Below are positions 56,442-63,228 of a DNA stretch of 64,000 bases, piece by piece; position 1 is the first letter of the stretch, and every line of letters starts with the position of its first letter. The notes beneath the pieces are model-generated. The model was not told the DNA's origin. It did no database searches and saw only the letters and a list, made by a program, of their open reading frames with translations. Origin of the DNA: Paragemmobacter straminiformis (GTDB lineage: Bacteria > Pseudomonadota > Alphaproteobacteria > Rhodobacterales > Rhodobacteraceae); contig NZ_JACLQD010000002.1 in NCBI RefSeq assembly GCF_014243445.1, positions 434,001-498,000 of the forward strand, written 5' to 3'. The translations under genes and the position numbers were made by a program.

Positions 56442-58004
56442 TCATTCGAGTTCGATGGTTCCCGGCGGTTTTGACGTGCAATCGTAGAAGACGCGGTTGA
56501 CGCCCTGCACCTCGTTGATGATCCGCGTGGCGGTTTCACCGAGGAAATCGTGGGTGAAGGGGTAATAGTCGGCGGTCATGCCGTCGACCGATGTGACGGC
56601 GCGCAGCGCGAGAGCGTAGTCATAGGTGCGCCCGTCGCCCATCACGCCCACGGTCTTCATCGGCAGGATGGCGGCAAAGGCCTGCCAGATTTCGTCATAC
56701 AGGCCGTGCTTACGGATCTGGTCGATGTAAACGGCATCGGCGCGGCGCAGGATGTCGAGCTTTTCGCGGGTGATCTCTCCGGGGCAGCGGATGGCGAGGC
56801 CCGGTCCGGGGAAGGGGTGCCGCCCGATGAAGGGGACGGGAAGGCCCAGTTCGCGGCCCAAAGCGCGGACCTCGTCCTTGAACAGCTCGCGCAGGGGTTC
56901 GACGAGCTTCATGCCCATCTTTTCCGGCAGGCCGCCCACGTTGTGGTGCGATTTGATCGTGACCGAAGGCCCGCCCGAGAAGCTGACGCTTTCGATCACG
57001 TCGGGGTAAAGCGTGCCTTGGGCAAGGAATTTCGCGCCGCCGATGGATTTGGCGTGTTTCTCGAACACCTCGATGAAGAGCCGCCCGATGGTCTTGCGCT
57101 TCACCTCGGGGTCCGAGACCCCTTCGAGCGCGCCGAGGAACAGGTCGGATTCGTCGGCATGGATCAGCGGGATGTTGTAGGTGTCGCGGAACATCGAGAC
57201 GACCTGTTCAGCCTCGCCCAACCGCAGCAGGCCGTGGTCGACGAAAACGCAGGTGAGCTGGTCGCCGATCGCCTCGTGGATCAGGACCGCCGCGACCGAG
57301 GAATCGACGCCGCCGGAAAGGCCGCAGATTACCTTTTCGCTGCCGACCTGTTCGCGGATCTTGCGGATCGCCTCTTCGCGGTAGGCCCCCATCGTCCAGT
57401 CGCCCTTGAACCCGGCGAGTTTGACGAAGTTTTCGTAAAGCTTCGCGCCCTTGGGGGTGTGATGCACCTCGGGGTGGAACTGGACGGCGTAGAAATGGCG
57501 CGCGGTGTCGGCGGTGATGGCGAAAGGCGCGTTGGGCGAGGTGCCGTAGACGGCAAAGCCGGGGGCGATTTCCGACACGTGGTCGCCGTGGCTCATCCAG
57601 ACCTGTTCGCGCCCGTCGGCAAACCAGCCGGCAAGGATGGGGTCGGTGGCATCGGTGGGGGTGACATAGGCGCGGCCGAATTCGGCCGTGCCGTGGCCGC
57701 GTTCCACCTTGCCGCCAAGGCAATGCATCATGACCTGCTGGCCGTAGCAGATGCCAAGGATCGGCACGCCCAGACCGAAGACCCCGCGCGGCGGCATCGG
57801 CGCGCCATCGGCAAAGACCGAAGCGGGCCCGCCCGAGAAGATCACCGCTTTCGGGGCGAAGGATTTCAGGAAGGCGTCATCCACTTTGTTGAAGGGGTGG
57901 ATTTCGCAATAGACGTTCAACTCGCGCAGGCGACGGGCGATGAGCTGCGTTACCTGGCTGCCGAAGTCGATGATGAGAAGGCGGTCATGCGCGATTTGTG
58001 TCAT
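56442..58004 (-). CDS. guaA: GMP synthase (glutamine-hydrolysing)
   Basis: A 520-aa enzyme converting XMP to GMP. The N-terminal glutaminase has GICYGQQVM with the nucleophile Cys and a [11 protein letters not shown] His/Glu region. The ATP-pyrophosphatase domain has [13 protein letters not shown] (P-loop), and the C-terminal dimerisation domain ends [23 protein letters not shown]-like (PPGTIELE here). Complete; the ATG at 58004 gives [25 protein letters not shown]. Monocistronic. Confidence 0.97.
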
Positions 58005-59885: not shown

Positions 59886-59914
59886 ACCCGCGCCGGAAAC
59901 GGTGCGGGTTTTTC
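59886..59914 (+). terminator. Rho-independent terminator of mttB
   Basis: ACCCGCGCC and GGTGCGGGT arms (one G-T pair) with a 6-nt loop, followed by a run of five T, 37 nt past the mttB stop. Confidence 0.85.
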
Positions 59915-60228
59915 TATGCGTGCAAGGTCAGGCGCAGTTCGGCCAGAAGGGCGATCAGCACCTCGATATGGCGGGCGAAGGAATAGGTGGCCGCACCGGT
60001 CCGGCGCGCGCTTTCGATCCGCGCCTCGGCCGTGAAAAGCGCGTCGAGCGGCGGCATCCGGCTTTCGGCAAGGGTCAGCAGGCGCGGCAGGTCGCGGTCG
60101 CGGCGGTAGAGCGACAGGCCGTGACGCGCGGCGCTGAGCAACAGGCGCGGGCGGCGGCGGTCGGCCACCCCCTCGGTCGGGGCCAGGGCTTGGGCGGTAC
60201 GTGGCGGGGGGGCGAAGTTGAAGGACAT
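59914..60228 (-). CDS. DUF6477-like conserved protein, divergent from gafA
   Basis: A 104-aa protein resembling the DUF6477 family of Rhodobacteraceae: RRRPRLLLSAARHGLSLYRRDRDLPRLL followed by a helical second half (ALFTAEARIESARRTGAATYS). No enzyme motif, signal or membrane span. The 203-bp region shared with the GafA-type gene holds a CtrA-like site. The consistent pairing with DUF6456 suggests a link to gene-transfer-agent control, but nothing is known of its activity. Confidence 0.7.
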   Translation of the reverse strand: MSFNFAPPPRTAQALAPTEGVADRRRPRLLLSAARHGLSLYRRDRDLPRLLTLAESRMPPLDALFTAEARIESARRTGAATYSFARHIEVLIALLAELRLTLHA

Positions 60229-60373
60229 GGCAACACCTTTGGTCAGGGTGCTGTCAATCTAGCGTGACACAACCTTGCGTTGCGCAATCGGCAGGGCAAC
60301 CGTGCGGTGCTGCGGCACTATTTTAACGCAAATACCTGAATTATTGACAAATTCGTCGCTAAACCCCGTCGTG

Positions 60374-60388
60374 TTAACGGTTCGGTAA
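60374..60388. promoter_or_regulatory. Candidate CtrA-binding site upstream of gafA
   Basis: TTAA-CGGTTCG-GTAA matches the TTAA-N7-TTAA CtrA consensus in seven of eight fixed positions, and the sequence continues CCAT as in known CtrA sites. It is 44 bp before the ATG of the GafA-type gene. CtrA control of gafA has been reported in Rhodobacter capsulatus. Confidence 0.4.
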
Positions 60389-60431
60389 CCATTGCACGTT
60401 GGGGTTGTGTTTACACTTTGGGGGTGTCGAT

Positions 60432-61523
60432 ATGAAAAACGGCCAGCAGGATGGCGGCGAGGGTGCGCCCTTGCCCGGATGGGTGCCCGAAACCGCGCGG
60501 CTTTATCTGGCGCATACCGGCGACGGGGTCTCGCTGCGCGAACTTGCGCGGCAACGGGGGGTGCATGCCTCGACCGTGATGCGGCAGGTGCGGCGCTATG
60601 AAAGCAGGCGCGACGATGTGCTGGTGGACCAGGCGCTTGACGGGTTGAAGGCGGTCAGCGACCCGGACGCGGCCACGCAGGCAGGGACCGGACCCGACCG
60701 GCCCGTGCCGCGTGCGGGTGCGGTGCCGCAAGAGGCGGAGCTGTCGCGCGAGGCGCGGCGGGTTCTGGGGCGGATGGCGGAAACATCGGCGGTGCTGGCG
60801 GTCTCGGCCGATCTCGGGACGGCGGTGGTGCTGCGGCAGGGCGGCGAGGGCAAGACGCAGCGGCTTTGCACGGTCGAGCGGTCTGTGGCGCAGGCCTTTG
60901 CGCTGAAGGACTGGATCACCTGCGACAAGCCGGGCCGGGTTTCGGTTTACCGGCTGACCGTGGCGGGGCGGGCGGCGCTGCGGCGCATGGCGGCCGCGCA
61001 GTCCGACGGCGGCTATGGCGCGCAGCACCGGCAGATGGAGATGCGCGAGATCGACGAGGCGGGCGGGCCGCAGCGCATTCGGGTCAATGTCGCGGAAAGC
61101 CCGATCGTGATGCTGGGGCGCAAGCGCGACAAGGACGGCAAGCCCTATCTGGAGGGCGAGTTGATCCGCGTGGCCGAACGTCTGCGCGAGGATTTCGAAC
61201 TGGCGCAGATGGGGCCGCGCGTGGCGCAGAACTGGGACCGCTTTCTGACGGCGGGCGACAGGGGTGGTTTCCGGTCGGATTCGGGCCTTGCCGAGGGGCC
61301 GAGGGCGGCGCGGGAACGGGTGTTGCTGGCGCTGGCCGATCTGGGGCCGGGGCTTGGCGATGTGGTGTTGCGCGTGTGCTGCTTTGTCGAGGGGATCGAG
61401 ACGACCGAACGGCATATGGGCTGGGCGGCGCGGTCGGGCAAGATCGTGCTGCGCATCGCCTTGCAGCGCCTGAAACGGCATTACGAAGAGCGGTATGGCC
61501 GGTCGGGGCCGCTGTTCGGTTAG
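60432..61523 (+). CDS. gafA: DUF6456 helix-turn-helix protein, GafA-type gene transfer agent activator
   Basis: A 363-aa DNA-binding protein. The N-terminus has an HTH (about residues 31-55, VSLRELARQRGVHASTVMRQVRRYES). A middle domain at about 105-187 looks winged-helix-like (LSREARRVLGRMA, DKPGRVSVYRLTVAGRAALRRM). The C-terminal DUF6456 domain covers about 218-355 (NVAESPIVMLGRKRDKDGKPYLEGELIRVAERLREDFELAQMGPRVAQNW). This arrangement fits GafA of Rhodobacter capsulatus, the direct activator of the RcGTA cluster, and GafZ (DUF6456) of Caulobacter. A CtrA-like site precedes it and a DUF6477 gene diverges from it. No GTA structural genes lie in the window. Confidence 0.75.
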   Translation: MKNGQQDGGEGAPLPGWVPETARLYLAHTGDGVSLRELARQRGVHASTVMRQVRRYESRRDDVLVDQALDGLKAVSDPDAATQAGTGPDRPVPRAGAVPQEAELSREARRVLGRMAETSAVLAVSADLGTAVVLRQGGEGKTQRLCTVERSVAQAFALKDWITCDKPGRVSVYRLTVAGRAALRRMAAAQSDGGYGAQHRQMEMREIDEAGGPQRIRVNVAESPIVMLGRKRDKDGKPYLEGELIRVAERLREDFELAQMGPRVAQNWDRFLTAGDRGGFRSDSGLAEGPRAARERVLLALADLGPGLGDVVLRVCCFVEGIETTERHMGWAARSGKIVLRIALQRLKRHYEERYGRSGPLFG

Positions 61524-62080
61524 GCGCCGAAGCCCTTGGCCAGCAGGCCGAGCGAGAGCAGGCCAAGCCAGCAGGCGGCGGCGCGGCGCATCAGGGCAAG
61601 GCCCGTGCCCGCCGCCGAAGGCAGGCGCTGTCCGATCCAGACCCATGCCACGGCGACAAGAACCACAAGCGCCGTGAAAAGCGCGAACCCCTGTGCCGGT
61701 GCGGTGGCGGGCAGCAGGACAAGGCCGAAGATCAGCGCCTTGGGGTTCAGAAGGGTGGTCACGAAAACGCGGGCCGGGCTGACAAGCGGGCGGTCGCCCT
61801 GATGCGGGCTGACATGCCACAGGCGGATGGCAAGCGACAGAACCCAGAGGCCGGCGATGATGGCGATGGCCGGACGCAGCGCGCCGAGCCACGGGCTTGC
61901 GGCATGGGCCAGCAACGTAAGCGGCACGACGGTGCAAAGATAGGCGGCCAGTTCGACCGGAATGAGCGGCAGCGAGGCGCGCAGCCCGCGGTCGGCACCC
62001 GAAAGCATCATCAGCGTATTGGTCGGCCCCGGCGTAAGCAGAAGCAGCAAGATGGCCAAGGCAATTTCGGGTGTCGGCAT
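61520..62080 (-). CDS. LysE/RhtB family transporter
   Basis: A 186-aa membrane protein with about five to six spans. It begins with TPEIALAILLLLLTPGPTNTLMML, the family start; an LLNPKALIFGLVLLP block follows, also typical. Members export amino acids or related metabolites; the substrate is not predictable. It is shorter than canonical LysE/RhtB (about 205 aa). The stop overlaps the opposing gafA stop by 4 nt. ATG 62080 is chosen because the upstream 20 residues are not membrane-like. Confidence 0.85.
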   Translation of the reverse strand: MPTPEIALAILLLLLTPGPTNTLMMLSGADRGLRASLPLIPVELAAYLCTVVPLTLLAHAASPWLGALRPAIAIIAGLWVLSLAIRLWHVSPHQGDRPLVSPARVFVTTLLNPKALIFGLVLLPATAPAQGFALFTALVVLVAVAWVWIGQRLPSAAGTGLALMRRAAACWLGLLSLGLLAKGFGA

Positions 62081-62277
62081 GTGTGGTTTCCCTGATGTCA
62101 GCCCGACTTGGCAAAAACGGCACCATTCGGGCCATGACATGGATCAAATAGCCGCTTTGCCAAGGGCCGCATAGTCCCGACGCTTGGTTGCGCATGGCGG
62201 GGAAAGGGCTTATCTCGGGGGAAGATCGGCGTTGCCGCGATGTTGGCAGGGGCAGGGCCGGAGCAAGGAGAGCGAGC

Positions 62278-63228
62278 GTGCGCGACCTGAAACTGCCCGA
62301 ACAGCGCCACCCCGAAAAGGCGCACCGGCCCGACAACGAGCAGCCGAAGAAACCGGCATGGATCAGGGTCAAGGCCCCGACCAGCGCGGGCTACAAGCAG
62401 ACGCGCGATATCCTTAAGGAAAAGAAGCTGGTGACAGTCTGCGAGGAAGCGGGCTGTCCCAATGTGGGCGAGTGCTGGAGCCAGGGCCACGCCACCATGA
62501 TGATCATGGGCGAGATCTGCACGCGGGGGTGCACCTTTTGCAACGTGGCGACCGGCAAGCCGCAAACGCTTGACGCTTTCGAGCCGGGTCGGGTGGCGCA
62601 TGCGGTGGCCGAACTTGGTCTGAAACATGTGGTCGTGACCTCGGTCGACCGCGACGATCTCGAGGACGGGGGGGCCGAACATTTCGCCCAGACCATCCGT
62701 GCGATCCGCCACCGCGCGCCTGGAACGACGATCGAGGTGCTGACGCCCGATTTCCTGAAATGCCCGCCCTCGGCGCTTGAGGCGGTTGTCGCGGCGCGGC
62801 CCGATGTGTTCAACCACAACCTTGAAACCGTGCCGGGACTATACCCCGAGGTGCGGCCCGGTGCGCGCTATTTCCATTCGCTGCGCCTGTTGCAGAAGGT
62901 CAAGGAACTTGACCCGACGCTGTTCACCAAATCGGGGATCATGGTGGGCCTTGGCGAGGACCGGCAGTCAGTCTTGCAGGTGATGGACGACATGCGCGCG
63001 GCGGATGTCGATTTCCTGACCATCGGCCAATACCTGCAACCGACGCCCAAGCACCACAGGATCGACCGTTTCGTCACTCCCGACGAATTCAAGGCCTATG
63101 AGACCAGCGCCTATGGCAAGGGGTTTCTGATGGTCTCGGCAACGCCGCTGACGCGGTCGTCCTATCATGCGGGCGACGATTTCGAGCGGCTGCGCGCGGC
63201 GCGGCTGGAAAAACTGGGGCGGGTCTGA
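62278..63228 (+). CDS. lipA: Lipoyl synthase
   Basis: A 316-aa radical SAM enzyme inserting two sulphurs into octanoyl groups on lipoyl domains. Auxiliary cluster ligands lie in [14 protein letters not shown] (CX4CX5C), the radical-SAM cluster in [14 protein letters not shown] (CX3CX2C), and the C-terminal RSSYHAG provides the Ser ligand of the auxiliary cluster. GTG 62278 has AAGGAG seven bases upstream. A GC hairpin spans the stop codon (63216-63236). Monocistronic as seen here. Confidence 0.96.

Follow-up and report, generated by a model that had tools for sequence, protein, structure and literature searches.

In this study, we revisited the region around a predicted activator gene of a gene transfer agent (GTA) in Paragemmobacter straminiformis, using a stretch of 64,000 nucleotides (contig NZ_JACLQD010000002.1, positions 434,001 to 498,000; hereafter the window) in which a GafA-type gene and a divergent DUF6477-like gene had originally been proposed. 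The locus is in our reading the standard Rhodobacterales gafA/rcc01866 pair, both in orthology and in pathway, and we give this a probability of about 0.87. The features on which it rests, in window coordinates, are the following.

59914..60228, minus strand: DUF6477 gene, 104 amino acids, probably of the rcc01866 family; PF20083, E 2.3e-25
60229..60431, no strand: divergent control region common to gafA and the DUF6477 gene, containing the CtrA box
60374..60389, plus strand: CtrA box TTAAC-N6-GTAAC, 0 mismatches to the consensus
60432..61523, plus strand: gafA orthologue, 363 amino acids; open reading frame (ORF), DUF6456 E 1.1e-57
60480..60617, plus strand: GafA N-terminal helix-turn-helix (HTH) region, residues 17-62; weak HTH models, predicted structure
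60729..61034, plus strand: GafA central winged-helix-like part, residues 100-201; predicted structure, VIA-align rows
61080..61490, plus strand: GafA C-terminal DUF6456 domain, residues 217-353, with sigma-4-like helices at its end; profile, predicted structure, VIA-align

The product of 60432-61523 is the only DUF6456 match in the P. straminiformis genome in a profile search for which DUF6456 in Caulobacter vibrioides served as the control, and the matched residues lie close to those expected beforehand (218-355). In the predicted structure, the N-terminal helices fall at residues 20-30, 35-42 and 46-61, in a region where the HTH matches were weak and the DnaA C-terminal model was absent from the profile matches. 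The central part is seen there to have a winged-helix-like fold and is the predicted counterpart of the omega-binding part. The GafA-type architecture of HTH, winged-helix-like middle and DUF6456 is therefore borne out by profile match and predicted structure, and the gene is a GafA orthologue, an ordinary member of the published locus and not a new one.

The CtrA site proposed upstream of gafA is present, as a perfect box whose end lies 42 bp before the gafA ATG; it has the form reported for Rhodobacter capsulatus gafA (PMC6363796). With at most one mismatch allowed, the window holds 2 such boxes against 0.27 expected. We collected the upstream regions of 80 related loci and of the window, 78 of which had the protein anchor used for the box count; 71 of these 78 gafA upstream regions contain a box matching at 9 or 10 of 10 positions and 50 have all 10, where shuffled regions give 1.45 and 0.05, respectively, so that the position of the box is conserved. 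CtrA probably binds the predicted box in P. straminiformis too. Roughly 17-42 bp before the CtrA box, many of the relatives have in common a TGTTTA...AAACAAT-like dyad that is not clear in the window.

It had also been predicted that a GTA would be found elsewhere in the genome, and a scan did reveal a structural cluster on the same contig, approximately 0.4 Mb from gafA. Profile searches identified terminase, portal, S78 protease, capsid, head-tail and baseplate/tail genes together with GTA_TIM (C9:881295-882173) in order, including a whole NlpC-type g14; one ORF of the cluster (L083 9434-10087) matched no Pfam family. One gene argues against an intact cluster: g13 matches TIGR02218 in two overlapping pieces, 1-98 and 92-257, in two frames (L083 7945-8795; G000:C9 883956-884743, minus strand), a split that may reflect decay of the GTA or an assembly error. 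If the GTA had decayed in P. straminiformis, its regulators would be relics or would serve another use, and genomes of this kind may exist, since 11 of the 244 genomes searched in the order lack GTA_TIM and 10 of these keep DUF6456. However, the other model-matched cluster genes each lie in one ORF, and both the CtrA box and the promoter spacer element described below are intact, and we consider decay unlikely.

The published flanks of gafA, lipA and guaA (PMC6363796), are likewise present at this locus, as judged by family-model matches, and enclose two further genes.

56442..58004, minus strand: guaA, one flank of the published gafA synteny; NF000848, 763.6 bits
58278..59849, plus strand: MTTB-family (trimethylamine) methyltransferase gene, between guaA and the DUF6477 gene; PF06253, E 4.5e-238
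61520..62140, minus strand: LysE-type transporter-like gene, weak; PF01810, E 0.025, below cut-off
62188..63228, plus strand: lipA, the second of the two published gafA flanks; TIGR00510, 366.4 bits

As described in print, the R. capsulatus gafA (rcc01865)/rcc01866 locus shares with the one described here the HTH-central-DUF6456 arrangement, the small divergent neighbour, the TTAAC-N6-GTAAC box and both flanks, whereas the MTTB-family and LysE-like genes inside the flanks and the split g13 may set P. straminiformis apart. The DUF6477 gene adjoins gafA divergently in 78 of the 80 related loci, and in the other two the contig ends before its place. Among the 244 genomes of the order Rhodobacterales, those listed carrying one family label, DUF6456 was found in 243, DUF6477 in 240 and GTA_TIM in 233, and DUF6477 is missing from 3 of the 11 genomes without GTA_TIM versus 1 of the 233 that have it (p 2.7e-4 in a Fisher test that takes no account of kinship). 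In a sample of 289 genomes of the class, DUF6456 occurs in 60 and DUF6477 in 7, five of which bear the same family label; the remaining two, out of 284 genomes, are both weak matches. The gafA/DUF6477 locus of P. straminiformis is ordinary in its order.

In R. capsulatus, CtrA binds the gafA promoter, and GafA binds the GTA promoter and the omega subunit of RNA polymerase (PMC6363796, PMC9638019). Read onto the genes, domains, box, synteny and cluster observed directly in P. straminiformis, this pathway, including the late rcc01866 phenotype, probably holds here as well. CtrA would act at the shared divergent region, GafA would then turn on the GTA cluster, at a distance of 0.4 Mb, and the DUF6477 protein would be needed for the late stage of maturation and lysis.

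The divergent gene, predicted to be DUF6477-like, does match PF20083, but the accompanying statement that it has no known role is outdated if it belongs to the rcc01866 family. In R. capsulatus, rcc01866 is adjacent and divergent to gafA, and its deletion leaves particles immature, prevents lysis and resembles a cckA deletion; no function has been predicted for the protein (PMC9638019). In a study of D. shibae, rcc01866 is reported to be involved in lytic release (PMC6473078). We provisionally assign the DUF6477 gene to this family because its divergent position recurs in 78 of 80 relatives and because of the gene order in the Roseobacter phage RDJL phi 1, in which homologues of GafA and rcc01866 are separated by a CtrA homologue (PMC6363796). 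Accordingly, gp38, gp37 and gp36 of this phage matched DUF6456, a CtrA-type DNA-binding domain and DUF6477, respectively, in that order. In phages RDJL phi 1, phi 2 and RDJL6 alike, a GafA relative (shown by Pfam to carry DUF6456 in phi 1 only) and a DUF6477 relative lie close together, as at the P. straminiformis locus; in the phages, however, the genes are co-directional with the CtrA DNA-binding domain gene between them. In all three, the CtrA-like gene shares an overlap of 1 to 7 bases with the DUF6477 gene, which suggests a late, CtrA-linked role; an exonuclease gene follows. This overlap is described in none of the literature searched, as far as available, nor did those searches find a paper by the name DUF6477 or a mechanism for it.

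Taken with the genome neighbours and the cckA-like deletion phenotype, the phage context suggests a late regulatory role with a CtrA-type protein, and we tentatively propose from gene context and phenotype that DUF6477 may work with CtrA in a late step. One point weighs against this: a fold search with the DUF6477 protein model (four predicted helices, mean pLDDT 85.4) gave no match clearly above background. The protein could instead serve in the assembly of particles or the maturation of capsids, which would account for the immature particles of the rcc01866 deletion (PMC9638019); however, the same deletion also blocks lysis and resembles that of cckA, and in the relatives inspected and in the three phages the gene sits with regulators and not with structural genes, so that we find this alternative rather doubtful.

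Relatives of DUF6477 are sparse outside the family. In the flanks of about 1.5 kb of 25 gafZ loci from outside it, a relative was found at two, one of them itself a seed of the profile and the other matching at E 2.2e-4. Genome G288, from another family of the class, has DUF6477-like, XRE-type HTH, DnaA-C-domain and DUF6456 genes within 2 kb (L144 3374-5335), its DUF6477 match lying just below the profile cut-off. The weak DUF6477 match of genome G341, one of the two from the class sample, is accompanied by no listed DUF6456, and no Gaf gene was recognized among the adjoining ORFs. One freshwater phage (MW462191) has a weak DUF6477 relative (E 0.018) beside a DUF6456 gene; a MucR gene, this relative and a DnaA-C/DUF6456 gene pair stand side by side (L137 1279-3570). 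In a second non-family genome with a weak DUF6477 relative beside DUF6456, a nearby ORF reads by eye as a putative MucR gene.

The region in front of the GTA cluster bears on how GafA may act. Upstream of g1 in P. straminiformis we found TTGACTCGGCGCACGGTCCGATGTA, followed by a hairpin and then g1. We compared this leader with those of 40 other genomes, 6 kb each, picked among the strongest GTA_TIM matches listed. The element TTGAC-N3-GCGnACGGTC-N4-GTA, located between the -35 and -10 of the GTA promoter, is present with at least 14 of 17 fixed bases in 25 of the 41 leaders (shuffles 0.03, maximum 1), a count that is no independent test since the pattern (17 fixed, 8 free bases) was derived from the same leaders. 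An ungapped hairpin with a T-run was found in 29 of 41, whereas 200 rounds of shuffling gave 3.4 on average and never more than 10; the same scan matched 18 of 205 coding control windows. Element and hairpin occur together in 23 of 41 leaders. Across the P. straminiformis genome the element has one match without a mismatch and nine others with three mismatches each, the ten in all being no excess over the 16 of a reversed control.

The hairpin was also followed with a covariance model, built on 12 of 33 leaders (29 found by scan, 4 by eye) that were picked by eye, with a structure from one fold. The model matches 27 of the 41 leader stretches at E <=0.002, its 12 training leaders included, and one place each in 76 of 121 genomes searched; at a looser limit, 3 of 32 matches were in the wrong orientation, the hairpin being nearly palindromic. 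Of 35 genomes in which both the match and GTA_TIM were placed, 32 have the two 11.0-12.3 kb apart on one contig and in the same orientation; the remaining 41 genomes, with GTA_TIM unlisted or listed on another contig, do not enter this count. The covariation score was 0.268 for the 12 MAFFT-aligned leaders, versus 0.160 when shuffled and at most 0.120 when slid, and 0.404 for 27 leaders, versus 0.199 and 0.122; both partners vary in 18 of 22 pairs of the 27-leader alignment (A6), which is fitted to the structure itself, so that its pair counts lean towards that structure. RNAalifold on a plain MAFFT alignment of the 33 leaders predicted no pairs, and an Rfam search with four leader stretches matched no family. 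In a small set, the leader match was not tied to GTA_TIM (2 of 5 genomes without versus 74 of 116 with; p 0.36). Genomes G091 and G095 have a matched leader element and no GTA_TIM found, and genome G056 (L098) has GTA_TIM, no DUF6477 match and a leader in which the scans detected neither hairpin nor spacer element. A GCTRG-type motif, counted without a control in 27 of 41 leader regions, is no more than a hint of a pause element at the very start of the transcript. That GTA leaders share a promoter with a spacer element, followed by a covarying hairpin and T-run, is described in none of the literature searched, as far as available, nor was a conserved terminator in the GTA leaders of Rhodobacterales found there.

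In lambda-type Q promoters (pR'), an element lies in the spacer and a terminator soon after the start. GTA leaders resemble them in having a spacer element and a terminator-like hairpin soon after the start, whereas the tests made showed no relationship between the proteins, a single one of 26 DUF6456 domains touching a Q-like PHROG (E 0.24). Anti-termination in the Bartonella GTA is reportedly the subject of a 2025 title, which we know from a reference list only. In Caulobacter crescentus, the DUF6456 regulator of the GTA cluster, GafZ, is an anti-terminator whose element lies between -35 and -10, and it has been suggested that R. capsulatus GafA might have anti-termination activity (PMC11150451). 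The Caulobacter system differs in having two genes, gafY and gafZ, where P. straminiformis has one, in its control by RogA and IHF, and in a terminator placed after the first gene, in contrast to the hairpin before g1 described here. The leader element and hairpin fit a Q-like anti-terminator role for GafA but do not prove it. By analogy, it is possible, if somewhat short of an even chance, that the DUF6456 domain also loads on RNA polymerase at the GTA promoter as a Q-like anti-terminator and lets transcription pass the leader hairpin.

Several observations count against anti-termination. Twelve of the 41 leaders fail the hairpin scan and 16 the spacer element, in a set that leans to intact GTA clusters. 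In all four leaders folded, the stem runs through the T-run and beyond, the T-run pairing with upstream purines, which is more than a plain terminator needs. Stock scans of three leaders gave a terminator in one and a consensus promoter in none; in the P. straminiformis leader, with its short T-run, no terminator and no sigma-70 promoter came up. In R. capsulatus, deletion of a putative stem-loop (-74 to -51) left expression of a lacZ fusion unchanged, while deletion of the GTA promoter reduced expression to background (PMC3999984). The folds, the stock scans and the stem-loop deletion would suit a GafA that acts at initiation only, through the omega subunit, with the leader hairpin serving mRNA stability or processing, and omega contact and promoter binding of GafA have indeed been shown in R. 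capsulatus. Against this alternative, whose chances we see as even, GafZ with its DUF6456 domain acts as an anti-terminator in Caulobacter, and a conserved element occupies the same promoter place in Rhodobacterales leaders. The stem-loop deletion cannot separate the two readings, because it was made in cells whose GTA promoter itself needs GafA.

Combining these lines, GafA could be a fusion of an activator and a Q-like anti-terminator, with the leader hairpin holding GTA clusters until DUF6456 loads at the spacer, and DUF6477 could be a partner, dating from phage late genes, of a DNA-binding protein of the CtrA type (or linked to MucR), kept next to gafA to tie maturation and lysis to CtrA; as a whole, we regard this scheme as improbable.

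The locus itself adds one genome to a well-studied regulator. The phage gene order supplies a hypothesis for rcc01866, for whose protein no function could be predicted in PMC9638019, and with the conserved promoter and RNA element upstream of GTA clusters it becomes directly testable whether GafA anti-terminates, as was asked in the Caulobacter work.
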